Assembly: GCF_963675165.1 (NCBI RefSeq)
Contig: NC_087391.1
Coordinates: forward strand, 4,638,646 to 4,702,645
DNA from: Halichondria panicea
Taxonomy: Eukaryota > Porifera > Demospongiae > Suberitida > Halichondriidae
Direction: 5' to 3'
DNA length: 64,000 bases
Shown here: positions 15,401 to 38,892 of the stretch, piece after piece
Position numbering within the stretch: position 1 is the stretch's first letter
Layout of the letters: every line of letters starts with the position of its first letter
The notes under the pieces: generated by a model
Told to the model about the DNA's origin: nothing
Database searches by the model: none
The model's input: the letters and a program-made list of their open reading frames with translations, nothing else
Position numbers and translations under genes: made by a program

Positions 15401-18229
15401 AATAATACTACTATATGCCTACTAAGTAAAGCGGAAAAAATCTTTGCCACAGACATAGGGCTAAAAATTATTAGAGTTGTTCATCTGAAGGGCGTGTGAA
15501 CGCCACACCCATCACTGGGCCATTGTGACCGTGGAGGGTGTAGAACGGACAACTAGATAATTTGTTTATAGACACACTGTACACACGCACGCACACACAC
15601 ACACACACACACGTACTGTGAGGTCTATAGACTTGACATTGAGGTCATTAATGAGCTGCCTGGCTAGAGTGCCCTGAGGCGGTTTGCTGGTGAGAATGAT
15701 GCTGTTACGCTGGACAGAGGCCCACTGGATAAACAGCTGTCGGGAGAAACCACACTCCAAGTCAGACATGCTCGCCAGTACCGCCTGAACGAGCGAGAGG
15801 AATGAGTAAGTAAAATGTGTCGAACATAACAATAATTATACTAAGCTTATAAATGTTGCACATTGCAAAGATTATATACTGTATACCGGGAAATTTTTTT
15901 CGAGGGCAGAGCAGATAACAGGAACATTAAAACTGGGCCTAACTCCCACACACTAGTATTTCACATGCAAATCTTGTTGGTGGGTGTGGTTTCTTGGCAT
16001 TGAAACGCAAATATTACACATTTCTTCTGAGGGCTCTCGAGCCATTGAGCAAACATTTCTTGCTTTACGGTACCATTTTCAATGGTCGGCATAATGGAAG
16101 CAACAACACAGCACAAGAAATGCTGCTTTTTCAATTGAACAGTGCAGTACCTTTGGCTCAGGCACTTTCATGAGGTCGGCCATGTTGTGGCATATTGTGA
16201 TATGTCTGGATAGGGGATCGAGGAAAAAGAATATCACACATTTTTCCTGTAAGTTAAGACCACCACACACACACACAAACAGGGACGTACTTGAACTGGA
16301 ATGGGTTATTCCTGTGATCCTCGAACATCCTCATAATCTTGTCACTCATCCACTCGACTTGGGACTTAGCAAACTCTACTACGTTATAACCCACATTGTT
16401 CAGGAGAGCTATGGAGTAGGCACACAGCCCAGACTCCTGGTTACGCCACATCTGATCCTGTGTGTGGTGGGCGGGGTGTGATGGATGAGTGGGTGGGTAT
16501 GTGTGTGTGCTTGCGTGTGTGTGTGTGTGCTATTTTTTTTCATTTTCTTGCATATAAAAAAAGAGGTGGGTGGATGGGTAGTACCAAAAGTGCATGCACT
16601 CCTGGTAGTACTAAGGAAGACGACTGACGACTAATTCATCAACTTGTTTTTTTTGTTGTTGTACCTTAGGTTAATCTCTGACCAATATGGTAAAGAATGA
16701 TCAGTTTAGAAAGCACATATACACCACTCACTGCTCACCAGTAGCTGTGATAGCTCCAACACTCGTCCTGCAGTGTCCACAGCAATGAGCACATTGCCAT
16801 CACTTCTCAATGTCTTCAGAATGTTCGCTGTGTGAGCAAAAGGAGGAGAGGAATTTTAGACAAAGGCTTGGAACCAAAATAGATCATTATGCAAGGACAC
16901 CTTGTACTACGTCTGCTGAACAATTCAGTAGCATAGGGTCAACATGACCACAGTCCTGATCGCCCTCCCTGCTATACTAACCTTTGCTAACCCTAAGCAG
17001 AAAGTACCCAATAGATCTGATGCTGTAGCTTGCATTATCGTGAGTAGGTTTCATGCATACACATGGACACTCACTGAGCAGTGCTTGATCTCTCTCCTTC
17101 CTCCTTGCCTGCACATTGAGGGCATTGTAGGTATCCGTGATGAGTAGGTGTGGTCTAGACAGGGACTCCAGCACTGCACCATCAAGATGTCTGAGGAGCG
17201 ATTAAAAACAAACCTAAATTCGGAGGTGTCAATCACTGCATAAACTGCTGAAACTACACCTAACAATACAAGATAGAGGAGTCTGGATTACATTGTAAGT
17301 CAAAGAGGAGTGCAACAACCACTAAAGGCAAGCTTTATGATAACACTGATATGAGGACAGCTACACCAAAGGCCTAAACACACACACATCAAGAATAGAT
17401 ACTGTGCACTCTTCCATGGAAACTGCTTAAAGATCATTACCAACTATCAATGCATCCCACTCACCTCTCTTTCTTATGGTTGTAGTCGACAGCATAGATA
17501 ATCTCCTCCTCACCGTCCTTGACAATCTTCCACATGGCCCCGCCCACCATATGACCGGCAGCATACGGAGTGATCGTCAGACCATGACCCTTACCTGAGA
17601 ATGGTGGCATATTTAGCAAGAGTTGATCAATAATTATGAACATGCCTTTAAGTTGAATGGTCTGAGAGTACTTGACCTGGACCACCTGATCAAAGGCAGC
17701 GTCCACATCATCCAAAGTGAACAGATCAAACTCCTCCCCATTCCTACGAGACTGGTACAAGTCGTACATGAACATCTGGCCCATCTTGAACACTGGGATG
17801 GTGGCGTACACGGGACACTTGAGTTCCAACTTCCCCACAAGATAGGGCAAGGCTCCGAGGTGAGTTACGTCGGGAAAGGACAGGAGGACGGCATCTATCT
17901 GAGAAACATGTCTGTGTGTGTGTGTATGTGCAAACGCACGTAACAGCCTGCCTTCTTGCGTATGTCCGGAATTCGTCAGCCATACTAATGCACATACACT
18001 TCATCATATTAATGGACCCACTACAATCTTGATATCACAATGAATATGATATCACTTTCATGACTTATGATTGGGCTCACTTCTTGAGGGCCTCAAACAG
18101 CTCAGTGTTGACATTGCTGTCCCATCCACAGTCCAACAGGAAGCAGAACTCGTCCACTTGCAGCAGGTAGCACGGAGGAGACTCGTTGTGGGCGCCAGAC
18201 AGCGCAGTGAAGTTGATGATGGACGTCAT
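10995..18229 (-). CDS. CPSF2: Cleavage and polyadenylation specificity factor subunit 2 (CPSF100), 19 exons
   Basis: CPSF2 is the non-catalytic metallo-beta-lactamase/beta-CASP partner of the CPSF3 nuclease in mRNA 3'-end cleavage. Exons, 5' to 3' on the minus strand: 18229-18081, 17898-17646, 17594-17465, 17190-17076, 16827-16739, 16457-16289, 16205-16151, 15784-15617, 15331-15246, 14383-14180, 14035-13990, 13924-13879, 13444-13420, 12948-12861, 12328-12188, 11976-11797, 11622-11542, 11203-11150, 11087-10995. The sum is 2,172 nt, in frame, 723 residues against 782 in human. Diagnostic blocks are the start [60 protein letters not shown] and the C-terminus YEQFAII. Zinc ligands are degenerate, as expected for this subunit. 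Oddities: intron 2 is 51 bp with a GC donor and is readable in frame; exons 11-13 (46, 46 and 25 nt) encode the variable linker, and exon 13 sits inside a transposon-like repeat. Confidence 0.96.
12350..12475. repeat. (GT)n microsatellite in CPSF2 intron 14
   Basis: About 125 bp of nearly pure GT on the plus strand, which is CA on the CPSF2 sense strand. It begins about 20 bases upstream of the exon 15 acceptor. Confidence 0.95.
13074..13520. mobile_element. MITE-like repeat with TGCCTCGGTG ends, surrounding CPSF2 exon 13
   Basis: The left end reads AGCACCGCGATGCTAATGCC followed by TCGGTGG, and the right end reads CGCATGCGCACACCGAGGCA followed by TAAT. The terminal ten or so bases (TGCCTCGGTG / CACCGAGGCA) are inverted. 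A second, longer element with the same ends and related inner sequence (ACTCGAGAA...CACGAAT...CTAGAAGC) lies at 28297-29336, and a lone right end lies at 22461-22495. Three occurrences with matching borders support a non-autonomous DNA transposon family. No transposase is visible. Confidence 0.6.
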
Positions 18230-18494
18230 GGACTCTCTTTCAATCATGCATGCTGCAAGGATCGTCAAATCTAGTGCACTTTCATTCTGACATCATGCAT
18301 TTACCACCCACACATACTTGTAGTATTTGGGGAGTGGCTGGTACAGCTTTGTACTACCATAGATTGAAGAGTTAGATTCAATCTATGGTACTACTGAGGT
18401 TTATAGGTAAACAATAGCCGAGCACAATAGCTAGCTGAGCTGAGTTGTACACCTTGTTTCAAGTGGATCAATCCTCAAAGCAATACTCACCGCC
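18230..18494. promoter_or_regulatory. divergent region CPSF2 / ubiquitin-like pseudogene, with hairpin
   Basis: The 265 bp between the start codons of CPSF2 (-) and the ubiquitin-like pseudogene (+) contains an inverted repeat. Arms are 18351-18368 and 18377-18394 (18 nt each, one mismatch) with an 8-nt loop. The repeat could be a small foldback element or a regulatory palindrome. Confidence 0.5.
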
Positions 18495-20704
18495 ATGCAA
18501 GTGTTTGTGAGAAGTACCTTTAATATCTCCGACCATAAGCTGGGCATTGAGACAATCAGCTTGAATATGAAGCCAACACAAACTATCATGGAACTAAAGA
18601 GAATGGTCCACAAAGCTGGTGCCCTCTCGTCACCCATGGAGCAGAAGCTCACCTTGGCTGGGGAAGAATTATCGAATGCCAGAACCATCGAAAGTTATAA
18701 TGTGAGGGAAAATACTCTAATCATTGATCAAGTCTCATGGATTTTGGTTAAAATGGGCAATACAAAAACAATTGTGAATGTTAGTTTTGTCATGACTGAT
18801 TCCTTAGAAAGAGTAGCTGAAAAAATTCGAGCCGAGTTTAATGTACCCAAGCAAGCATCGGTTATGTTTTCAACTAGTAGGAGTCCTGGCGCTAGGATCA
18901 TTCACACTTCTCTCGTTGATTTGCTATTTAAAAGGCATATTTCAGTGCTGGTTAAGCAGATGAATCATAAAGTGGTTTGTTGCCTAGAATCTGCTGATCA
19001 GATCTGTGTATATGTTAAACATTAACAGGCAAGTGTCACACAATCAAAATCTCCCCTGCTCATTGCATTTTATATCTCAAATATCAAATAGCAAAAGCTT
19101 TTGGCCCTGAATTAGATAACATTCGTTTGATATTTGCTGGAAAACAGCTGGAAGATGAGCAAACATTAAAGGATTACCACATTGGGAGTGATAGTACAAT
19201 ACACCTTGTCTCGCGTATAAGGGGTGGTGGTGGAGGTGCACGCAATTTGGAGCTTTACATTGTTACAGAAGCACCCAGTCTCACTAATCCTCTCGTGTTA
19301 AGTGTAGGCAGTGAAAACAGTGTCTTAAGTATAAAAAATAAAATTTATAGGAAAATTTCGTATAGGCCGGAAGATCAAGTGCTCCGTTTTAATGATATGA
19401 TCTTAGAGGATGATAAGAAGATCTGTGATTTGTCAATTCAAAATTATCATGTAATTCATCTTTCTTTACAACCCCAAACGGGTATGATTAAGTTTTACGC
19501 ATACCTGCCTAATGGAAAATGTATTACATTGTTCCTACACCGGAATGAAAATGTTCATCGCTGCATCAAGATTATTCAAAAAGATATGCTTAGTTGAAAA
19601 TTTTTTATTTCGTTTGGTACAACCATCTTGAAGAAAGGAAGGCTGAGCGATTACAATATCCAAGGCGGAGTAATGATACATGTTGTTCCTAGAGATGGGG
19701 CAGTGCATATTGAATTGATGCTACATGGCAAGACGATAAGGCACACATCGATGTCTGTTGATTTGAGTGATACTGTATTTTCCTTAAAAATGAGAATATT
19801 AATAATTATTTGTGAAAGTCTTCCGACTGCAAAACTACGATTGTTCCTTGGTGATCGGCAACTTGAAGACCGTAAGGTGTTGAGTGACTATCAAGTATGT
19901 AAGATGATCACGGTTCATGTTCGAACCATGGCTGATGAGGCAGAATCAATTCAACGGCCTTCACTTAGATTGTGCTCCACTGACTCTCCTATGTGTACAG
20001 GTTCACTCGAAACGAAGGGAGCTTGTGGCACTAGTACTGAGCCTTGTGTTACCAAAAATGGTAAGTTTGTTAGCTTTTATAGGCTTATTAATATCATGCC
20101 ATCACCCTCCAGATATCATTAAGCAAAAGGGAGCTTGTGGTATTGGACCCTGTGCTACTAAAACTGGTACTGTATATGTTTGCTAAACATTCATTTAATT
20201 TGTCATCATAATTTGGAACATTGTCCTTTTAGATGTGCCAAGAGATGCTCACCGGACAAAATGGAATAGTGCAACTGGTACGTTAACACTGTAAATACAG
20301 TCTTTAGATATTTTTCTTTCAGCATATGAGGCAGAAACGAGACAGCTAACTATTGAAACCTTGATGATCAAGACCAATGTGAGACTGACTGATGCTCAAT
20401 TGGACAGTGAAATTGAAAGTAGAGATCTTTATCCTGTGGCTGGCTACTTTGATGACGTGGAAATTACATTCGTAATCTGGAGCTGAATAAATCAGAGATG
20501 GCTGATGTAAGAAGACGTACTCGTGAACTGGGAAACCAGCTTGGAATAGTGTATGCCCTCGAGCTATGGAAGAACAGTACTGTGTCCCCAACGTACAAGT
20601 CACTTATCAATATACTCTTGCACCTTAATCATGTCGAGGTAGCTAGAAGCATTTGTTTGTTTTTAACAAACGTGCTTGCTTCTAAAAAATGTTTACCAGA
20701 GTAA
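18495..20704 (+). pseudogene. Decayed multi-ubiquitin-like / Death-domain gene
   Basis: This is a host gene copy closely matching 25950-28210. It has its own ATG (MQVFVRSTF) on the first ubiquitin-like fold, which the intact copy lacks. It is broken at three places. A base is missing in an A run near 19012-19020: the frame stops at 19025, and the following ubiquitin fold (TLTGK...[10 protein letters not shown]...RIRGGGGG) resumes in another frame. A CGA-to-TGA change gives the stop at 19595-19597, where the partner reads DRKFDISF. A base is missing near 20461 in the Death exon. The third fold is closer to true ubiquitin than its counterpart in the intact copy ([10 protein letters not shown] and a Gly-Gly-type tail), so decay began from a more ubiquitin-like state. 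Small exons at 20112-20166 and 20233-20278 and the Death exon from 20324 keep their splice sites. Alternative splicing or assembly error could soften the call, but three independent breaks favour a pseudogene. Confidence 0.82.
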
Positions 20705-20851
20705 TAATAATTTGTACAATCTCTACTCACTTTATAAAATTATCATTCTTATTGTTATGTAACGTGCTAGCAGGAGTGCATGAATATAATATTATAGCAG
20801 AGCATTATAAAAGCAGTCTATGTGATCGAATGCACATTGACTACCATATAC

Positions 20852-21624: not shown

Positions 21625-21675
21625 CGCTATAGCATAGATACTACCAGAGATACAAATACTACTCTATGGCTATAG

Positions 21676-22449
21676 CAGAGATACAAAAGAAAGGGGATTG
21701 GAAACGAAATTTTTACGAAATTTTTGCGTGAAGCATTCCGCGTTATAGGGCGTGGCTAAAACTACAAAGGATTATATTTATAGTCAGCATGCTCATTACC
21801 TGTCTTGACTGCTCTACAATGTGCTGTACATAGAAACAGTGAAATTGATCATTTTTAATGTTGATTTTTCTAAAAAGTAAAGAGAATTTAGCTCTAAAAA
21901 GTCGACTAAGCCACGCAGCCACTATTACTAGACAAATAAATGCTATGCAAGAAGAAATAGCCTTTACTATGAAGTCGTAGGAGGGACAGGCCCGTGGTGT
22001 GTCTAAAAGTATACTAAAGCAGTTTGAAGGACTATACTGCAAACGTTTATGAACAGTACAGCTTATTTATAGCATGAAGCCATTCTATGTAGCACTTAGA
22101 TACATAATAACCAAGTCAAGCAATGTCCTTTGCTGTTTTGACTTCATAGGAGGGACAGAGAAAAGTTGACATAGAGTAATTCAAGCTAAACTCAAAAAAA
22201 TTGGAAACAGAGTAAAGACAACGGACTTAGAGCTTGTCAGTGGTATAAGCTTACTTCTCTCAAGTATCTCCCAGGCCCTGAGTGATCTCTAGTGGATAGG
22301 AGAGCTAGAAACCAGGGATACAAAACCGTAGCGCAGTCCTCCATGTAATTATTTGTGAGCAATAATTGCACGGAGTGCTTCACCGGATGTCAGTCCTTTT
22401 ACATAGGGCGTGGGCGGTCGTTTCCAATCCCCTTTCTTTTGTATCTCTG
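21676..22449. mobile_element. MITE with about 30-bp perfect inverted ends and 7-bp target duplication
   Basis: The left arm begins CAGAGATACAAAAGAAAGGG and continues GATTGGAAACG. The right arm is its exact inverse, ending at 22449. Both flanks carry GCTATAG (21669-21675 and 22450-22456), a target-site duplication. There is no coding capacity. Perfect ends suggest a fairly recent insertion. The sub-terminal blocks (GATTGGAAACG, GTGAAGCATTCCGCGTTATA) are shared with the element at 24145-25100. Confidence 0.8.
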
Positions 22450-22460
22450 GCTATAGGTAG

Positions 22461-22548: not shown

Positions 22549-25500
22549 ATGGCTTCTACTGACTGCACAAATAAAAAGTTCATGGAATATTCCTCTTTAC
22601 TTTCTACACTTGTGTTTCTAGTTGGAGCAGGAGTTTCAGCAAAGGAGATGTTTTCTGGACACAGTAACATGTCCAATGTCACTACACCACCCCCTATCCC
22701 TCCGTCCCCTTTCACTGCAATAACACCCTCTTCTGCATCACTAGTGCCTGAAGAAGTGGCCCTGCCTGTCCACCTGACTGTGATTGTTTTAGTAACTGTA
22801 CTCGTTGCTATTCTCTTTGTAGCGATATACATTCAACTGATACTGGTGATATGGTTCGGCTACAAACTTCTATCTTATCAAACTGTGCTACTGTTCAGTG
22901 TCCTATTGTGGGCAGCTCTGAGACTGACACTCTTTTCGTTTTACTATTACCACTGTTGTGAGAGTGTGAGGCTACTATTAAGTGGAGTTGCTGGTTGGGT
23001 GATTGTTTCTTTCCTAGCTGTATTACAATACTTCTCTCTTGCTGTGTTAGTGAGCTATTTTGGAGATGTGAGTTCATCTATTCAATATTGGTATATGCAT
23101 GTACTTGGGCAGACCATAGATAGAGACCAACAGTGGTTGTATTAAAGAGGTGGTCTGCTTGTATAACAGGTCCCAAACACATGGAGACTTTGGGGCCCAT
23201 TCAATACTAAGACAAGTTACTATTGTACATCATGTGCTTTAATTGTCCAATTGTGCACAATGTGTTGTCTACTATGATCTCATACCTATTGTACAGACGC
23301 GTGGAGGTTGGTGAACTCACGTATGCACTTAATTGGTGATATTTTGTACAGAGTTTGTTCAAGGTGTTTGAGAGACGACAAGAGATGGCTACACTCACTC
23401 CTCCATACAGGAAGATGACCACGTACCGGTGAGTCTGGTTTTGGTCCAATTGTTGCACCACAGCACTACATTGGCTACATGCTTTCCTGTACAGTGCATG
23501 TGTCACCTTCACATAATCCCCACAGAGCTCTTGCATCACTGCTCTGGTTTTCTTTCGTGTTTGTCTTTCTGGTCGGGAACATTTCATTCTACGTTGCCAT
23601 TGGCAACGATATTCAAAAGGACAGTTCACTTTTACCCACCTTCAGAGTCCTGCTGCAGGATGGGCTATTCCTAGCAACGGCTGTCATTCTGGGTGTCTGC
23701 ATTGTGTTGGTGAGTGGGCACTAAACTGTATTATTTTATGAATCTATGTATGTAACTTTTTTTGTTAACAATGAAACGATTTTTTGAAAACATGTTCATT
23801 CTCTTGAAACTACTCAAGTACCCTTTACTTTTAAAGAAAAGACAGCCCTGTTTCAACACATTGTTGCATTCCATATGCGTAGAGTGTGTGATATCCTCTC
23901 TCATCTACTGTTGTGCAGATGTACACGACCCGTGCTGGTAAGGATGTTCTGGAAGCCCAGAATGTCCACAAATGCTGGCCCATGCTTGTCTCAGTGTCAC
24001 TGGTCTTGCTGTTCCTCTCCAGAGCTATCTACAACATCATAGCCGTGAGGCTTACTGACATCAATGTGTTTGGGAATGGATACACATTCACAACTGATAT
24101 GGCGAGCAGTAATAGTACTTGGAAGTTGCACAAAGTAACCATAGATAGAACAGGAGAGGGATTGGAAACGACTGAGCCTCCCTGTGTAAACAGGTGAAAC
24201 ACTCCACGTTATATTTGGCGTTTGCGAATATTTTGGTGATTGATCATTCTGTGGTATAGTCCTTCAAACTGCTTTTAAATTTTAACTAGCCTCGATTCCA
24301 GGCCAATTAAAATACAGCTTGGTACCTATTGCATGGGTGATAGTGCGCATGCGTTAGTTCTTCAGAGTCAGGGGAATCCCCCTTCTTCTTTCTTTTCTAT
24401 CTATGTACATCAGTTTAGGTCTCTATATTGCGTTGTTCCAGAAGGCTTTTACACTAGTATGACTGAAGCCAGAAGAGGCTCTCATCTACCTCTATGACGG
24501 CTGTATGGTCAGGATGTCTTAGCTTGGATCTGTACAGGCTATGGGAAGTGTATGGTGCTTCTTAACTGCTACTTGCGAAGACAACCCGGCTATACGACCA
24601 TCATAGACGTAAATGAGAGCTAGTGTTCAAGCCTTCTAAATGGCATAAGCCACAGCTTCACGGAACTCAGTCATGGAGATAAAGTATTACGGAACATATT
24701 CTTAGTAAACAGACTAATTTACTATGTTCGTAGTACGATTACCCATATTCTGGGTAATTTGAAGCGCATGCACACTATCAACCATGCAATAGGTACCAGG
24801 TTGTGTTTTAATCGGCCTGGAATCGAGGCTAACTTTTAACATATCATGGGCCTTGACCTCCCATGACTTTAAGTTTTGTATAACATTTATTTGCTTGGTG
24901 ATATAGTGGCTGGGTGGCTTAAGAGCTAGTTTTCAGCATAATCAACATTGAACAGTGACTATTTCTATGTGCAGCACATTGTATGGCAGTCAAAATTAAG
25001 ACATGTAATGAGCATGCATGAGTGACTATCCTTCCCACGTCCTATAGCGCGGAGTGTTTCACGCCAACATTTTCATTTCCAATCCCTGTTACTGTTCTAT
25101 AAACCGACTACAGATTAATAATCTCCAAAGCACTCATAGCATGTGCTTCAACCTGTATGGCATATAGCAAGGCCACCTCTTTAGTATAGAGTATTTGCTG
25201 AATTGTGACTTAAAACAGGTTTGCTGAGTTTGAAACAGTAATGCACTGAATACCTGTTGTCAGGGGGCGTCATACAGGGAGGAAGGGGATATCCCCCTGG
25301 TTCAATTTCCCCTCCCTAAAATGTGCATTCAGTTACTAGTTGTATGACTGAGTATGCAAAGGCAACCAAAACCCACCAAAAAGATGCGACGACACACCTC
25401 TGCGTGCCTTATTCACTTCAAAACCCTGTGTGACATCCTGGTTGTTATTATAAATGTGTGCAAGCTTCTTATGATATACTATTGATCTCTCCCTTTAGTG

Positions 25501-28210
25501 AATACCTTTTCAGTGTTCACATGCATATAATATGGACCACAAAATGGAAACTACTGTGTACACTCTCTCTATACACACACACAGGCCGATAATGAATTCT
25601 ATACGTCCAATGGTAAGCACAATATGTATGGCTATGTGGCTTACTTTGCTGTGCTCGTGATATGGGAGATCATCCCAACGTACATGATTGTGGTCTTCTT
25701 CCGAGTCAGAATTCCATCCAAATCGAGCGTAAGTTGGCACACCGTTTTAGACTCCTCTCTGTTACATTCATGGTGGGTGTGGCAATTTAGAAGGAGTATT
25801 AGTATTTCCATTATGTTAGTAGTAAATTAATGTGTTATACTTCCCGTCAATGCAGCGAACCTGCCGAGTGCCTGAGGACATAGAACCTGTTAGAGAGAAC
25901 CATTTTTTTGAGAATCCACATCGCTTTGATAAAGTACTACACCATGCCAACGCTCGCTCTATTGTCCAAGTGTTCGTGAGAAGCACCTTTATTACCTCCG
26001 ACCATAAGCTGAGCATTGAGACAATCAGCTTGAATGTGAGGCCAACACAAACTATCATGGAACTAAAGAGAATGGTCCACAAAGCTGGTGCCCTCTCGTC
26101 ACCCATGAAGCAGAAGCTCACATTGGCTGGGGAAGAATTGTCGAATGCCAGAACCATCGAAAGCTATAATGTGAAAAAGAACACACTCATCATTGATCAA
26201 GTCTCATGGATTTCAGCTAAAGTTTATAAAGATGATGAGCTGTTAGGTGTATTCAGTGTTAGCTGTGCCATTACTGATTCTGTGCAAAGAGTAGCAGAAA
26301 TTTTTCGAGCCAAATTGAATGCGTCCAAGCAAAATTTTTTGATCTCATTGTTTTCATGGAAGCGTAACCTTTTGAACCCTCCTGAGAACAGCACTACTCT
26401 ATTTGATTTGTTGTTTCTTAGGGAGTTGCGTAAGGAAAAGAACATGAATCATAAAGTGGTATGTTACTTACAATCCACATCCTCTGAGACGTGTGACAAT
26501 AGATCTGTTTCAGACCAAAATTCAATTATGTTGTCTGTCAAAGCATTAACTGGTGAGATAATTGAATTGCCTATGCTTTCATCCACTGATTCGATATCCT
26601 ATGTTAAGTATAAAATATACAAGTCAACAGGTATTTTACCCTGTGCTCAAATGTTGATACATTTCGGAAAACAACTGGAGGACAAACACACACTGAGCTA
26701 TTACAATATTCATAGAGTCGATATGTTACACCTTGTGTTACGCCTATCAGGTGGAGGAGAGTTTGACTCCCATACAATCTATATCATAACACTCACTAAC
26801 ACTATCATGCTGGCTGTTGACACACACAGTAGTGTTCTAGATGTAAAAAAACAAATTGCTAAGAGAATTCAATGTAGGCCAGAAGATCAGGTGCTTCACT
26901 TCCGTAATGTGGTCTTAGAAGACGAGAAAACACTAAATGAATACTCAATTCCGAAAAATTATGCTGTTCACCTCTCTTTCAAGCCCAAAATGGGTATAAT
27001 TACGTTTTACGTATACCTACCTGATGGAAAATGTGTTACATTATTTCTACCCCAAAATGAAACTGTTCATCGTTGCGTCGAGATTATTCAAAAAGAAATG
27101 TTGGATCGAAAATTTGACATTTCATTCGGTACAACAATATTGAAGGAAGGATCTAGGTTGAACGATTACGATATTCAAGACGGAGTAATGATACATGTTG
27201 TTCCTAGAGATGGGGCTGTGCCTATTGAATTAATGCTACATGGCAAGACAATGAAGCAGACATCAATGTCTGTTGATTTAAGTGATACTGTATTGTCCTT
27301 AAAAATGCGAATATCAAATTTAGAACGTCTTTCAATCGCAAAGCTACAATTATTCCTTGGTGATCGGAAACTTGAAGACCATAAACTGTTGAGTGACTAT
27401 CAAGTACGTAAGATGACCATCATTCATGTTCAAATAGTGGCTGATGAGGCAGAATCTATTCGACAGCCCACACTTGGTAAGTACATTAATTTAGTTATGA
27501 TTGTATTTCCCCATAATTACATATACAGATCCACCAGAGAGCAAGAGACCTTGTCTTACTGGGACTTGTGTTTCTAAAATTGGTAAGGCGTAGCTATTGC
27601 GAATAACTATAGTATAATACCATGCTCGGCATCCTCCAGATATCACTGAGCAAAAGGGAGCTTGTGGTATTGGACCCTGTGTTACTAAAACTGGTATGTT
27701 TGCTAAGCATTAATTACCGGTAATTTGTCGTTATAATTTTGAACATTGTCCTTTTAGATGTGCCAAGAGATGCCCACCGTACAAAATTGAGTAGTGGAAC
27801 TGGTACGTCAACACTGTAAATACAGTCTTTAGATATTTGTTTTTTCAGCATATGAGGCAGAAACGAGACAGCGAACTATTGAAACCTTGATGAGCAAGAC
27901 CAATGTAACTGATGCTCAATTGGAAAGTGAAATTGAAAGTGGAGATCTTTATCCTGTGGCTGGCTACTTTAATGACGTGGAACATTACATTCATAATTTA
28001 GAGCTGAATAAATCAGAGATGGCTGATGTAAGAAGACGTACTCATGAACTGGGAAACCAGCTTGGAATAGTGTATGCCCTCGAGCTATGGAAGAACAGTA
28101 CTGTGTCCCCAACATACAGGTCACTTATCAATATACTCCTGTACCTCAAGCATGTCGAGGTAGCTAGAAGCATTTGTTTGTTTCTAACAAATCTTCAACA
28201 TGAATTATGA
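22549..28210 (+). CDS. GPR137-type 7TM protein fused in frame to six ubiquitin-like folds and a Death-fold domain
   Basis: Exons: 22549-23067, 23352-23428, 23526-23709, 23919-24134, 25585-25728, 25856-27476, 27529-27582, 27640-27693, 27758-27802, 27849-28210. The sum is 3,276 nt, in frame, 1,091 residues. Exons 1-5 (residues 1-380) match the GPR137 family of lysosomal/endomembrane seven-helix proteins: LLWAALRLTLFSFYY, SRAIYNIIAV, YVAYFAVLVIWEIIPTYMI and FFRVRIP. Exon 6 opens with the family's cytosolic tail (ENHFFENPHRFD, compare YFFDNPRRYD) and then continues without a stop into six ubiquitin-like folds (about residues 417-915). The first fold has no Met of its own: the decayed copy's ATG is GTC here. 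The third ends LRLSGGGE, like the ubiquitin tail. Three mini exons with Cys-containing repeats follow, then a Death-fold domain (about 972-1091; ELGNQLGIVYALELWKN...TYRSLINILL). Tail on the cytosolic side is inferred. The alternative is that GPR137 ends via a donor at 25945 (AAA/GTACTA), leaving a headless array. Confidence 0.78.
24145..25100. mobile_element. Inverted-repeat DNA transposon in intron 4 of the GPR137-type gene
   Basis: The left end ATAGAACAGGAGAGGGATTG (24145 on) and the right end (finishing CAATCCCTGTTACTGTTCTAT at 25100) are imperfect inverted repeats of about 27 bp. Sub-terminal blocks (GTGAAACACTCC...CGTTATA and its inverse) are shared with the MITE at 21676-22449, so both belong to one superfamily. 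It carries a second element inside it and no coding frame. Confidence 0.65.
24288..24830. mobile_element. Nested inverted-repeat element with AGCCTCGATTCCAGGCC ends
   Basis: Arms of about 65 bp at each end (24288-24352 and 24766-24830) are near-perfect inverses, and the element is flanked by AACT on both sides (24284-24287, 24831-24834). It sits inside the element at 24145-25100 and is therefore younger. The inner half also folds back (CTCTATGACGGC...ATACGACCATCATAGACG). A fragment of the same end occurs at 10064-10077. Non-coding. Confidence 0.7.
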
Positions 28211-28619
28211 TTTCTATCTCTGCTCACTTGTGTCAACTTGTCATTATTTTTTATTGTTATGTAACGTGCACTTTAATAATTTATGGGAAAATAAAAAGCA
28301 CCGCGGGTGCTGATGCCTCGGTGGAGGTACCAAAGCTACATTAACATAAAACTACTAATAGCTAGCTTTTATACAAATATTTATATCATGAACATTTTTA
28401 ATTTTGCTGCACAGGGAAACTTAATGATACCAAAAGTTAATACTATCAGATTCACTGCCCACTTTATACAAACCACTTCCGGTGACCCAAAGTAGCGCTT
28501 GGGTTATTCATGGGGCCCCAGAGCTGGTGGTGGGTGGGTGTCGGGAAACTGGCATCTGCCATCAGAGCGCTACTTTATCCGGAGTTCTGTAACTCACAGT
28601 ATGCACTGCTCGGTGTGGT

Positions 28620-29130: not shown

Positions 29131-29463
29131 TTCAGTGAAGAGACTGCAACAGCCTTCAATGTAAGTTAAACTAGCCACTAGCCATAACTCGAGAAAGAAG
29201 CTTAATTCACGAATCAAGAAAGTGGCTAGAAGCCTATAGAATGGAACAGACACACACACACTCCATACTATCTAGCACACACACACACACAGTCAGCTTT
29301 ACCGTATCCCTCGTGCGGCTACGCCTCGAGGCATAACTAACAGTACAAATTATAACGATTAACTCACAAAACCCAACGATAGTCTAGTTTGAAATTAAGT
29401 TTAAAGTTTCTATGATTATTTCTGCTGATGCGATGCATGTCAGTAAATGAAACAGAGAGGAAC

Positions 29464-31079
29464 CTAGAGTTTTCCTTTAAACGTTCCTCTGTCTCTAGCT
29501 GTATAGATGGCCTTGTGGACTTGATCAAAGTGTGGGGCAAGCTCCTTCTGACAGTCAGTCAGCCATTGGGACAGTCGTGGCTTGTCTGCTACTGGGTCCA
29601 CTCCTGCCACCCAGAACTGAGTCAGCTCACAAACTGCCTGCAGGTCAGCAATGGAGATACTATCACTGTTGATGAACTTGGTGTCTTTAAGGAAGTGGCC
29701 GTCTAGTAACTTCAGGCTCTTCTTGAGAATCTTTTCACTGGTTCTTATCATCTCCTCGTTTGGGGGCTGTCCAGTCATTTTGGGCAAGAGTGCCTACAGA
29801 AATGAACACTTTACGTAGCTGGTCTAATACTGTAACAAGAGCTTGTACATTAACAAGCCTTAGCTATGCTTATATACAGTGGAACATCTGTTAACAACTA
29901 CCTCCGAATAAAGGCCAGTTGCTAACAGCCAGGCACCCAGGTCCCAATTGAATAGTTTGTGTATAAAACAACCTCTCAACAAAGGCCACCTCTGTATAAA
30001 GGCCAAAACATTGTTCTCCAAAGGTGTCCGTTATAGAGAGATTCCACTGTAGTAATAACGAGCCTAAATTAGCGGAGCTACCTGTAGAGTACGTGAGCTT
30101 GTACATTAACAAGTCAGCTGAGCTAGTACAAGAGTTTGTACATTAACGAACCTATAGCTGAGCTAGTACAACTAGTACAATAGCTGAGCTACTCTTAAAA
30201 CAGCTTGTACTACGTTCCGTGTAGCGGAGGGTATAAACTTTTGCGGAAAGAGACCGTTGAAAAGGATTTTCACAGATTTAAATTTCATGGACTAACAGCC
30301 TTTTGGCGCATTCGTGCATGTGATAATTAAAAGCATGGAACGCGCGCGCATACTCATTATCTGCGTTTGCGCGAATTTTCGCATAATTTACAATCGAAAA
30401 AGGCCGCATTCGAAATCTGATATACGGTATACAGTATTTGACCATACCAGTATAATAGCTGTAACTTTACATTTAAGCACATTTAAGCACACTCTACAAT
30501 GGCCTAATACATTAGCTCACCTTGTAGAAGACAATAGGGGCGGCACCCATTCTCAAGTTGGCGTGGTGCCAGTGAAGGTACTCGTCAATCTTGGCTTGTT
30601 GCTGGAGGTCAGCTGGGTACCAGTGGTCGGGCAACTTGTGCTTGCACACCAGGTACTTCATTATTGCAGCACTACAGGTATACTGAGGTAGCTTAATCAT
30701 GTGAGAAGGAGCAGATCTTTAATTGAGAAAAAATTTTCACCTCTCAAAAAGCTTGAATCCGTTGTCGTCAATTGCAGGCACTGTTCGAGTTGCACAGACT
30801 TTCGTAAACTCCTCATCAGTCTGGTGCTCCACTGCAAAAATAAAAGTCAGTAATACCATTATGCTGCTATGGATATCAAACTCTTGATATGATATTATGG
30901 ATATAGTAAAAAATTTTAATTAAATTAAAAGTGACTGGAGTAGCTAGAACCTATAGACACCCACTCTTTGCAATCTTGATGAGCTTGGGCTCAAATGGAA
31001 TTCTGTTGGCATGGCACAGGATAAGGACAGCCCTGCAGGGCTGAGAGAACGCATCAAAAAACAACTTCAGACCAGCCAT
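29464..31079 (-). CDS. Theta-like glutathione S-transferase, copy A, 4 exons
   Basis: Exons 31079-30965, 30831-30741, 30671-30521 and 29793-29464 (115, 91, 151 and 330 nt) give 228 residues in frame. The N-terminal thioredoxin fold shows FFDAFSQPCRAVLILCHA, with the Ser that theta-class enzymes use to activate glutathione, and TVPAIDDNGFKLFE with the cis-Pro turn. The helical C-terminal domain begins DHWYPADLQQQAKIDEYLHW and contains ISIADLQAVCELTQF, the conserved N-capping/hydrophobic-staple region. It is expected to conjugate glutathione to electrophiles in the cytosol. Intron 3 holds a TA-flanked MITE and a transposon fragment. Copy A is nearly identical to copy B 2 kb away with the same exon lengths, so the pair is a recent duplication. 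Confidence 0.9.
29877..30049. mobile_element. 173-bp MITE with CAGTGGAA ends and TA target
   Basis: It begins CAGTGGAAC and ends ATTCCACTG, with TA on each side (29875-29876, 30050-30051), the pattern of mariner/Tigger-related elements. It contains short internal repeats of the type CTCAACAAAGGCCACCTCTG. Non-coding, in GST-A intron 3. Confidence 0.75.
30226..30330. mobile_element. Left-end fragment of the GAGGGTATAAA element family
   Basis: GAGGGTATAAACTTTTGCGG and the following bases to CAGCCTTTTGGCGCAT track the first 90 bp of the element at 20852-21624 with substitutions. No right end is seen nearby. Confidence 0.55.
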
Positions 31080-31129
31080 CTTTAATTTGCAGTCAAAAGT
31101 GGGAGTGGCTGCTCTCTCTACTCCCTCAA

Positions 31130-31412
31130 GTTCACATGAATGAAAGGAAGAGGAGAGCTAACTAATGCTAACCCTCTGTTCGTATAGTGAGTGGAGGAGC
31201 TGAGAGATGAGAAGATGAATCTGTGGAGAAGAATGCAAAATCTCAGTATGCTTAGTTTTATTCTTAGGGGGGGGGGCCCCACTCAAGCACCCCCGGGGTG
31301 CTTGAGTATGGTGTCAAATATGTACCATCCCAGGCCCTAAGCTTTCTGCGTAGATACCCTCTCTCCCTGAAAGATTGTGCAATGTTTGACTTTTCATCAT
31401 TTTATTCATCAG
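31130..31412 (+). pseudogene. MUS81 5' fragment (exons 1-2 remnant)
   Basis: 31145-31255 matches MUS81 exon 1 (for example GCTAACCCTCTGTT, GTGGAGAAGAATGC, AAATCTCAGTATGCTTA). 31322-31372 matches exon 2 (CCCAGGCCCTAAGC...CTGCGTAGATACCCTCTC), with its acceptor. 31374-31412 tracks the intron up to the exon 3 acceptor. The MAAK start is gone and the frame is broken by several small changes. It stands head-to-head with GST-A, exactly as MUS81 stands to GST-B, so it is the relic of a duplicated GST/MUS81 unit. Confidence 0.88.
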
Positions 31413-31443
31413 TAAACATAGGCTAAATAACATCCTTTTTTGC

Positions 31444-31625
31444 AGGTGTGGCAAAAACGAGACAGCTAACTAGATCTAAACGAAACCAATGTGACTGATG
31501 CTCAATTGGAGAATGAATTTCAGCTCTGAGATGGCTGTTAACTTGTAAAACATGCGCGTGAACTGGGAAACTAGCTTGGAATATAGTGTATGCCCTCGAG
31601 CTATATGGAAGAACAATACTATGTG
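31444..31625 (+). pseudogene. Death-domain exon fragment
   Basis: Sequence from GTGTGGCAAAAACGAGACAG through GACTGATGCTCAATTGGA, GAACTGGGAAACTAGCTTGG and GTATGCCCTCGAGCTA aligns with the last exon of the gene at 27849-28210. Deletions and stops leave no usable frame. It directly follows the MUS81 remnant, so two unrelated gene fragments have been joined. Confidence 0.85.
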
Positions 31626-31999
31626 TACTTTAATCACTTATTGCGAAATATGTGTCACGTGTAGATCATTTATTCTTCAAATATCCGAAGAACTTCATCT
31701 CAAAATTATACAATCAATGATTGCACTGCTGCAACATGTACATGCATGCAGGTATAATAATCTATTAATAGACTATATACCAGTATGCCAACAACTACAC
31801 ATGTCATGGAAGGATGAACAATAGATAATAAAAATTTGCATGAAATAAATAAAATAACAATCAACTGTCAAACACCTGATTCTCAGCTATTGTCTATAGC
31901 TACAAAAGTAATTTGTTTAAGTACTCTTGATAAATGTTCACGAATCAAAAAAGTCCTGTGTAGCACTCGTATCTAAATGCATGGAACGGAGTGGAGAAC

Positions 32000-33052
32000 C
32001 TATAGCATTCCCTTGAATGTTCCTTTGTCTCTAACTGAATAGACGGCCTCATGAACTTGATCGAAGTGTGGGGCAAGCTCCTTCTGACAGTCGGTCAGCC
32101 ATTGGGACAGTCGTGGCTTGTCTGCTACTGGGTCCACTCCTGCCATCCAGAACTGAGTCAGCTCACAAACTGCCTGCAGGTCAGCGATGGAGATGCTATC
32201 ACTGTTGATGAACTTGGTGTCTTTAAGGAAATGGCTCTCAAGTAACTTTAGACTCTTTTCGAGAATTTTTTCACTGGCTCGTATAATCACCTCATTCGGG
32301 GGTTGTCCAGTCTTTTTGGGCAAGAGTACCTATGGAAACAGACAAAGGCCTAATACATTTATAAGGGGACAGGTTTTTCTAGCCGTCTTGTACTTGTTTT
32401 TCCCCTTGGCTGGTACAACCTTCTCTCCCCTGTCTTAGCTCACCTTGTTGAAGATAATTGGGGTAATACCCATTCTCAAGGTGGAGTGATGCCAGTGAAG
32501 GTACTCGTCAATCTTGGCTTGTTGCTTGAGGTCAGCTGGGTACCAGTGGTCGGGCAACTTGTGCTTGCACACCAGGTACTTCATTATTGCAGCACTACAG
32601 GAGGTTTAGTACATAGGGAGGTAGCTCAATCATTTAATACGGTGGCCCAGAGAGTTCACCTTTGCTAGTAGAGAGTTCTAGTAGAGAACTCTCTACTAGC
32701 GAAAGTAAACTCTGTGAACTCTTTGGGCCACTGTATAAGTGCATCAGGGGAGTAGGTCTACAAACGAGTAGAACTTCACCTCTCAAAAAGCTTAAATCCG
32801 TCATCGTCAATTGCAGGCACTGTCCGAGATGCACAGACTTTCGCAAACTCTTCATTGGTCTGGTGCTCCACTGCAAAAGGACAAATCAGTGATACCATGT
32901 AGCTAGCTATGTATTAAACATCAAGGTGATTGCTTACTCTCTCCAATCTTGATGAGCTTGGGCTCAAATGGGATTTTGTAGGCATGGCAAAGGATGAGGA
33001 CAGCCCTGGAGGGCTGAGAGAATGTATCAAAGAACAACTTCATTCCAGACAT
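32000..33052 (-). CDS. Theta-like glutathione S-transferase, copy B, 4 exons
   Basis: Exons 33052-32938, 32870-32780, 32594-32444 and 32329-32000 have the same lengths as in copy A and give 228 residues. It starts MSGMKLFFDTFSQPSRAV, keeping the theta-class Ser. The C-terminal domain matches copy A apart from a few changes (VIIRASEKILEKSLKLLESH; tail TFKGML). A frame can be extended upstream of this Met into the promoter, but MSGMK aligns with MAGLK of copy A and with family starts. Intron 2 holds a near-perfect hairpin (32642-32731). It is head-to-head with MUS81, 151 bp between start codons. Confidence 0.9.
32642..32731. repeat. Foldback repeat in GST-B intron 2
   Basis: Arms 32642-32679 and 32685-32731 pair as GTGGCCCAGAGAGTTCAC / GTGAACTCTTTGGGCCAC and CTAGTAGAGAGTTCT / AGAACTCTCTACTAG. 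A 9-bp piece is missing from the left arm. Copy A has no such insert at this place, so this is a small mobile foldback element that arrived after the GST duplication, or was lost from A. Confidence 0.85.
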
Positions 33053-33203
33053 CTTTGGGTTGATTGCTGCATGTACGTATACACGTGTGCATGTACTAAT
33101 TGTCTGTGCAATGCTGAAAACACTTTGCAGCCAAAAGTGGGAGTGGCTGCTCTCCACCTGTAACTCAAATAAAGCCGCCCTCAAGTTATTGGGTGCAATG
33201 CAA
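33053..33203. promoter_or_regulatory. Bidirectional promoter region GST-B / MUS81
   Basis: Only 151 bp separate the divergent start codons. The block TTTGCAGCCAAAAGTGGGAG followed by TGGCTGCTCTC is preserved in the duplicated copy upstream of GST-A (31086-31120). It was copied as a unit and may hold core promoter sites for both genes. Confidence 0.5.

Positions 33204-38892
<5,689 letters not shown>

Follow-up and report, generated by a model that had tools for sequence, protein, structure and literature searches.

A locus of the demosponge Halichondria panicea raises the question of whether a seven-helix protein of the GPR137 type can continue, within one gene, into ubiquitin-like domains and a Death-type domain and, if so, how such a gene came about and whether it is being maintained. 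The locus lies within a 64,000-nt stretch of contig NC_087391.1 (assembly GCF_963675165.1), here called the window; coordinates are positions in this stretch, read on the forward strand, unless another location is given. Re-splicing of 22549-28210 (+) reproduced exactly the gene model that an earlier note on this DNA had proposed (10 exons with GT-AG borders, 3,276 nt, 1,091 residues), and the spliced-frame reconstruction had 1,091 codons plus a stop and zero internal stops. The model encodes, in order, a seven-helix GPR137-like part, then ubiquitin-like domains and, after a set of mini exons, a Death-type domain. The features concerned are as follows.

22549-23067, 23352-23428, 23526-23709, 23919-24134, and 25585-25728 (+): exons 1 to 5, the GPR137-like part (GPR137-B), from the spliced frame, homology, and hydropathy
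25850-25852 (+): in-frame ATG at the end of intron 5, a possible start of an array-only product
25856-25971 (+): first part of exon 6, the GPR137 cytosolic tail with FFENPHRFD, from blastn and alignment to the paralogue GPR137-A
25964-26194 (+): ubiquitin-like domain 1, residues 417-493, 30% identity to ubiquitin (blastp, 2.7e-12)
25967-25971 (+): junction, where sister array A, GPR137-A, and the fusion all read CAAGT; this 5-nt overlap stands at the array gene's codon 2
26201-26443 (+): putative domain 2, residues 496-576, a fold proposed in the earlier note
26522-26758 (+): ubiquitin-like domain 3, residues 603-681, 53% identity to ubiquitin (blastp, 1.7e-21; HMM)
26768-27439 (+): ubiquitin-like domains 4, 5, and 6, residues 685-758, 761-831, and 834-908 (blastp, 3.4e-12, 2.1e-6, and 7.1e-12; HMM)
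27529-27582, 27640-27693, and 27758-27802 (+): mini exons 7 to 9, from the frame, the borders, and alignment with array A
27849-28210 (+): exon 10, the Death-type domain and stop codon, from alignment with relatives
28290-28295 (+): AATAAA, 80 bases past the stop, the sole AATAAA/ATTAAA 3' of the stop in a scan of 22549-28420
18495-20767 (+): the unfused sister array A, which starts at an ATG of its own (18495), from sequence comparison with the fused array

The two halves meet inside exon 6 (25856-27476), which is open from the GPR137 tail motif through the ubiquitin-like array. Its stop-to-stop frame (25826-27577, 583 aa) contains both FFENPHRFD and the array, and the chance of an open stretch of 540 codons is about 2e-15 at the local base composition. 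The stop-free continuation described in the earlier note therefore stands, as do five of the six ubiquitin-like folds that it read in this exon; the sixth, domain 2 (residues 496-576), had no ubiquitin match by blastp or by a local HMM.

The origin of the upstream half can be read from a second gene. GPR137-B aligned with human GPR137B by blastp over 366 positions at 31% identity (E = 1.3e-40), and its hydropathy peaks, with overlaps merged by eye, at residues ~77-95, 113-131, 142-169, 200-218, 245-263, 279-301, and 353-371 correspond to seven helices. The fusion reads FFENPHRFD where the human protein has FFDNPRRYD, and neither sponge copy reached any Pfam cut-off. A genome search with GPR137 gave 12 matching places, six in the window and six at a complete, unfused gene of 455 aa, GPR137-A, whose coding span (C15:1850090-1853302) is on the same contig at a distance of 2.8 Mb; no other locus was matched. 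GPR137-A and the fusion have an identical six-exon layout as far as the join and alignable introns, but the paralogue lacks the array and has a short tail that ends in ...SPSFFSEH, 48 residues beyond the join point. The fusion, in contrast, has ~675 extra residues after its GPR137 part, the same exon proceeding into ubiquitin-like domains where a GPR137 would carry no extra domain after its short cytosolic tail. We thus assign the seven-helix part, on sequence, to GPR137 and the whole protein to something other than a standard GPR137.

The copied block includes introns. By blastn, GPR137-B and GPR137-A match from 22593 to 25971, though not continuously: the similarity is broken into several pieces, and intron 4 contains an insert that the two do not share. 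The start conserved between the two copies is the inner ATG at 22582, 11 bases before the first blastn match, and the copied block appears to begin at about the start codon. By blastn, the DNA 5' of the GPR137-B start is not common to GPR137-A, and it contains a repeat element, so that no promoter is apparent there. This short inverted-repeat element (21670-22456) has at least 39 other copies (the best 39 of 658 candidates) at 92-97% identity, most of them 96-97% identical at the right end; another such element in intron 4 (24287-24831) has many copies at 79-86% identity.

At the other end, the breakpoint can be placed to within five bases. The reverse complement of GPR137-A matched 25849-25971 at 79% identity (blastn), and blastn and alignments on both sides showed that similarity to GPR137-A stops at 25971 and that similarity to the sister array begins at 25967. 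We take CAAGT to be the breakpoint because GPR137 similarity ends and array similarity begins within these 5 nt. The sister copy of the array on which the earlier note relied was confirmed at 18495-20767. That note had also read the triplet before the array as a start codon mutated from ATG to GTC, and this was mistaken: the GTC at 25964 falls in GPR137-derived sequence, and GPR137-A has GGC there, so that a substitution in the first fold is rejected. Also revised is the proposal of an insertion, in which a duplicated gene had entered GPR137 at its last exon. The 48-residue tail of GPR137-A had no convincing match in the window by tblastn (the best, E = 0.5, lay elsewhere and ran through a stop), and among the matches listed for the 3' DNA past the join there were only simple repeats or short chance stretches. 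Since the replaced tail has no convincing downstream match, the event was a join rather than an insertion: a partial second copy of GPR137 was joined to an array gene, and the complete gene is elsewhere. Among the 40 matches listed in a genome search, those to the GPR137 tail (residues 1-32 of the query) came from the fusion and GPR137-A only, and within that listing no second locus had the join.

A partial GPR137 copy joined in frame to an array gene is thus real in the DNA. The alternative that the assembly united two separate loci is highly improbable: the window contains no N, the join is in frame at array codon 2 via 5 nt of shared sequence, and both sides have diverged in sequence from GPR137-A and array A.

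The downstream half belongs to a family of array genes. Pfam ubiquitin (PF00240) matched the fusion in five stretches (E = 1.5e-52; 175.7 bits versus a cut-off of 25.4), and the local HMM likewise gave five ubiquitin-like domains. AlphaFold2, run on exon 6 as a single sequence, returned a low-confidence model (mean pLDDT, 36) that was uninformative. Two other genes, L024 (C5:314512-316875) and L025 (C10:2171558), also carry an array followed by the same Death-type domain, and the combination is therefore a family in this genome. Unlike the fusion, neither had a GPR137 match in the genome search, and the L025 array has, by eye, its own start, MQLYIK. Long ubiquitin-like-array genes at L018-L025 (C5, C17, C2, and C10) have varying C-terminal partners: Death-type in L021, L024, and L025, and ZU5-like and CARD-like segments, seen by eye and without a Pfam match.

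Domain 3 deserves separate treatment, because it ends in LRLSGGG, a possible processing site. The whole protein could be translated and then cut, as ubiquitin precursors are, after LRLSGG, so that the Death-containing half leaves the membrane. The 53% identity of this domain to ubiquitin fits such a cut, as does the disabled array A, which reads IRGGGGG where fused domain 3 has its terminal glycines. However, cutting of ubiquitin precursors depends on recognition by deubiquitinases, and here the LRLRGG of ubiquitin is altered to LRLSGG, the other domains are far from ubiquitin, and only domain 3, among six segments, ends in a double glycine, which is not the pattern of a polyubiquitin-type precursor. 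We consider cleavage quite unlikely.

For the last exon, the Death-type assignment rests on relatives (L024 and L025) and not on a Pfam match of its own. The Death exon of the window, searched alone against Pfam, gave no match at E <= 1. Thirteen further copies, drawn from 12 loci of the genome, align with it at 29-43% identity, and its homologue in L024 exceeded the Pfam Death cut-off (25.3 versus 22.6 bits), that in L025 staying below it (18.2 versus 22.6). A profile of the 14 copies had no match among PDB chains at E <= 0.1. The Death-fold domain that had been reported at the end of the protein is supported by homology to an exon that passes Pfam Death, but the window copy itself has no Pfam match. 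The exon 10 family is large, with at least 150 matches genome-wide (150 scored of 601 candidates), including the window's own and two pieces in array A; Pfam Death gave at least 148 matches among the best 150 of 503 candidates. Among the nearest relatives after array A are three genes of the Roc-GTPase type, L046-L048 (44-48% identity), which carry the same Death exon downstream. They differ from the fusion in their upstream part: the ORF of L046 matches Roc above the cut-off and ankyrin below it, and L047 and L048 look alike by eye. Judging from adjacency, the Roc-type ORF and the Death exon at these loci presumably form one gene. A third, degraded piece of this Death-type exon was seen in the window at 31436-31624. 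Sponge genomes are known for large Death-domain repertoires (PMC12909245, PMC8195603), as described in the accounts of Dysidea avara, with 128 DEATH genes (PMC12909245), and of Amphimedon, with expanded Death-like/TRADD-N (PMC8195603).

Whether the joined frame is maintained was examined on both halves. Between GPR137-A and GPR137-B, dN/dS was 0.48 over 393 codons (bootstrap, 0.31-0.75), with 1.27 in the first 60 aligned codons and 0.42 in the remainder. We rejected this ratio alone as proof of selection; a value of 0.48 fits one neutral and one constrained branch. Frameshift and human-outgroup tests were made because it could average the two. In the four GPR137 introns that were aligned (intron 4 was left out), 684 aligned bases contain 21 indels, of which 15 would break a frame; a neutral B lineage should by that measure have accumulated about 13 frameshifts over its 1,179 aligned coding bases. 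Zero were observed (P ~2e-6, or 0.0016 at half the rate). Exactly one of the two copies agrees with human GPR137B at 16 sites, nine of them kept in B and seven in A, a split that a freely decaying B, with 80-90% of changes in B, would yield with P <= 0.0015.

On the array side, the fused copy is intact and the sister carries three disabling lesions: its frame shifts near 19000, meets a TGA at 19595, and shifts again near 20470. Fused versus sister dN/dS was 0.19 in domain 1, 0.29 in the Death exon, 0.96 in the mini exons, and 0.31 and 0.55 in stretches of domains 5 and 6, with synonymous sites near or past saturation in 26211-27000. In another alignment of the arrays, the array exon had a dN/dS of 0.43 (0.33-0.55) and the Death exon one of 0.52 (0.21-1.47). 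Taken together, the fusion reading frame looks to be preserved by selection. Part of this constraint may predate the join, as the paralogue splits are possibly older than it. Compared along their length, the two arrays (18495-20767 versus 25967-28269) form a mosaic, with ~93% identity in domain 1 and the Death exon and 52-66% in mid-stretches; the contrast of high end identity with a low middle suggests conversion at the ends.

Splicing bears on whether this frame reaches a protein. Donors in 22549-28420 were scored in bits from donor frequencies. The exon-4 donor, AAA|GTAACC at 24134, is weak (3.5 bits), and the remaining eight donors of the fusion score 6.0-10.3. At the position of the GPR137-A donor (24101) the window copy reads GC, and a stronger donor of 7.3 bits at 24193, in the unshared part of intron 4, breaks the frame. 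These sites, together with the repeat elements in intron 4 and upstream, are what one would expect if a recent fusion were already decaying, with transcripts cut short or degraded through exon-4 mis-splicing and the open frame left as a remnant. That reading is improbable, however, given 1,091 codons without a stop or frameshift versus three disablements in the sister array, human-matching residues that B has lost no more often than A, and two donor choices that keep the frame, 24134 and, as a GC donor, 24101. Exon 6 also has internal GT sites, scoring as high as 8.8 bits (at 26552), where splicing is possible in principle.

The start and end signals speak to a different division of the locus. 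An internal promoter in intron 5 could yield an array-only protein from the ATG at 25850, with ~36 GPR137 tail residues, the seven-helix part being made separately or not at all. The earlier note had held that the array could be translated only within the upstream protein, which is too strong a statement, since this ATG is in frame with the array; the join, moreover, put other sequence in place of the array's start codon and of what preceded it. Yet the ATG is also present in GPR137-A and is thus inherited, not selected; no AATAAA or ATTAAA was found between 24306 and 28007, so that a separate 3' end for the seven-helix part is not apparent; and the seven-helix frame is preserved. An AATAAA also occurs at 28007, within the Death exon. 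We regard two separate products as unlikely.

The reading that we favor, as probable on balance, is that the locus is a young chimeric gene encoding a membrane-tethered ubiquitin-like/Death adaptor. A DNA-level copy of GPR137, with its introns kept, would have extended from about the start codon to the middle of the last exon and been joined, via the 5-nt microhomology, at codon 2 of one of two neighboring array/Death genes, with the array gene's ATG replaced and the last 48 residues of GPR137 lost. One mRNA ending near 28290 would then give the 1,091-residue protein. Mammalian GPR137B is described as lysosomal, binding Rag GTPases and promoting mTORC1 activity (PMC7429791), and, by analogy, the seven helices may place the chimera in the lysosomal membrane. 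With topology as in GPR137, the new tail would be cytosolic and display the ubiquitin-like folds and the Death-type domain. The chimera would thus be an adaptor permanently anchored in the membrane. Its Death-type domain could meet the numerous other Death proteins that this genome encodes, and partners that bind ubiquitin could be recruited by ubiquitin-like domain 3, so that Death-fold signaling would be coupled to Rag/nutrient state.

More tentatively, and at less than even chance in our estimation, the chimera is functional and specific to this lineage, a receptor-adaptor through which a lysosomal seven-helix protein linked to Rag/mTORC1 is tied directly to Death-fold signaling. If so, it would be a membrane-anchored, ubiquitin-decorated platform from which this genome's very large Death-domain network could be triggered in response to nutrient or lysosome state. 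GPR137 fixed to ubiquitin-like and Death domains would then be a natural experiment linking lysosomal nutrient signaling with cell-death or immune adaptors, in which a single genome has GPR137 in its complete form, the unfused sister array in a disabled one, and the precise breakpoint. The locus is also a clean case of how a multidomain signaling protein may originate: a partial gene copy, 5-nt microhomology, and an in-frame join at codon 2.

A domain order of this kind appears to be new. Literature searches for GPR137 with ubiquitin-like domains or sponges, for GPR137 fusions, and for the domain combination found no GPR137-ubiquitin-like-Death protein among the papers listed, and we count the locus as a chimeric gene whose domain order was not found described in the literature searched. 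The earlier note's statement that it knew of no described protein of this layout was borne out to that extent; a 2025 GPCR survey gives GPR137, across eukaryotes, as 7TM only, without other domains outside the 7TM region (PMC12716839). A tumor fusion-transcript study names GPR137 (PMC5370005). There is also a likeness to the GPCR-kinase fusions of sponges and choanoflagellates described in the same survey, in which a 7TM protein also gains a cytosolic signaling domain, but there the gain is a kinase instead of ubiquitin-like and Death domains and the 7TM family is another (PMC12716839).

Other genes lie near the fusion and its sister array. Downstream of the fusion, 29447-31254 and 31981-33328 (-) form a tandem similar pair, pieces of which are 82-97% identical and which by eye look like glutathione S-transferase genes. 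On the far side of array A, a gene at 17461-18292 (-), which by eye we take to be CPSF2-like, is divergent from the array and ~200 bases apart from it, so that the two possibly share a promoter.
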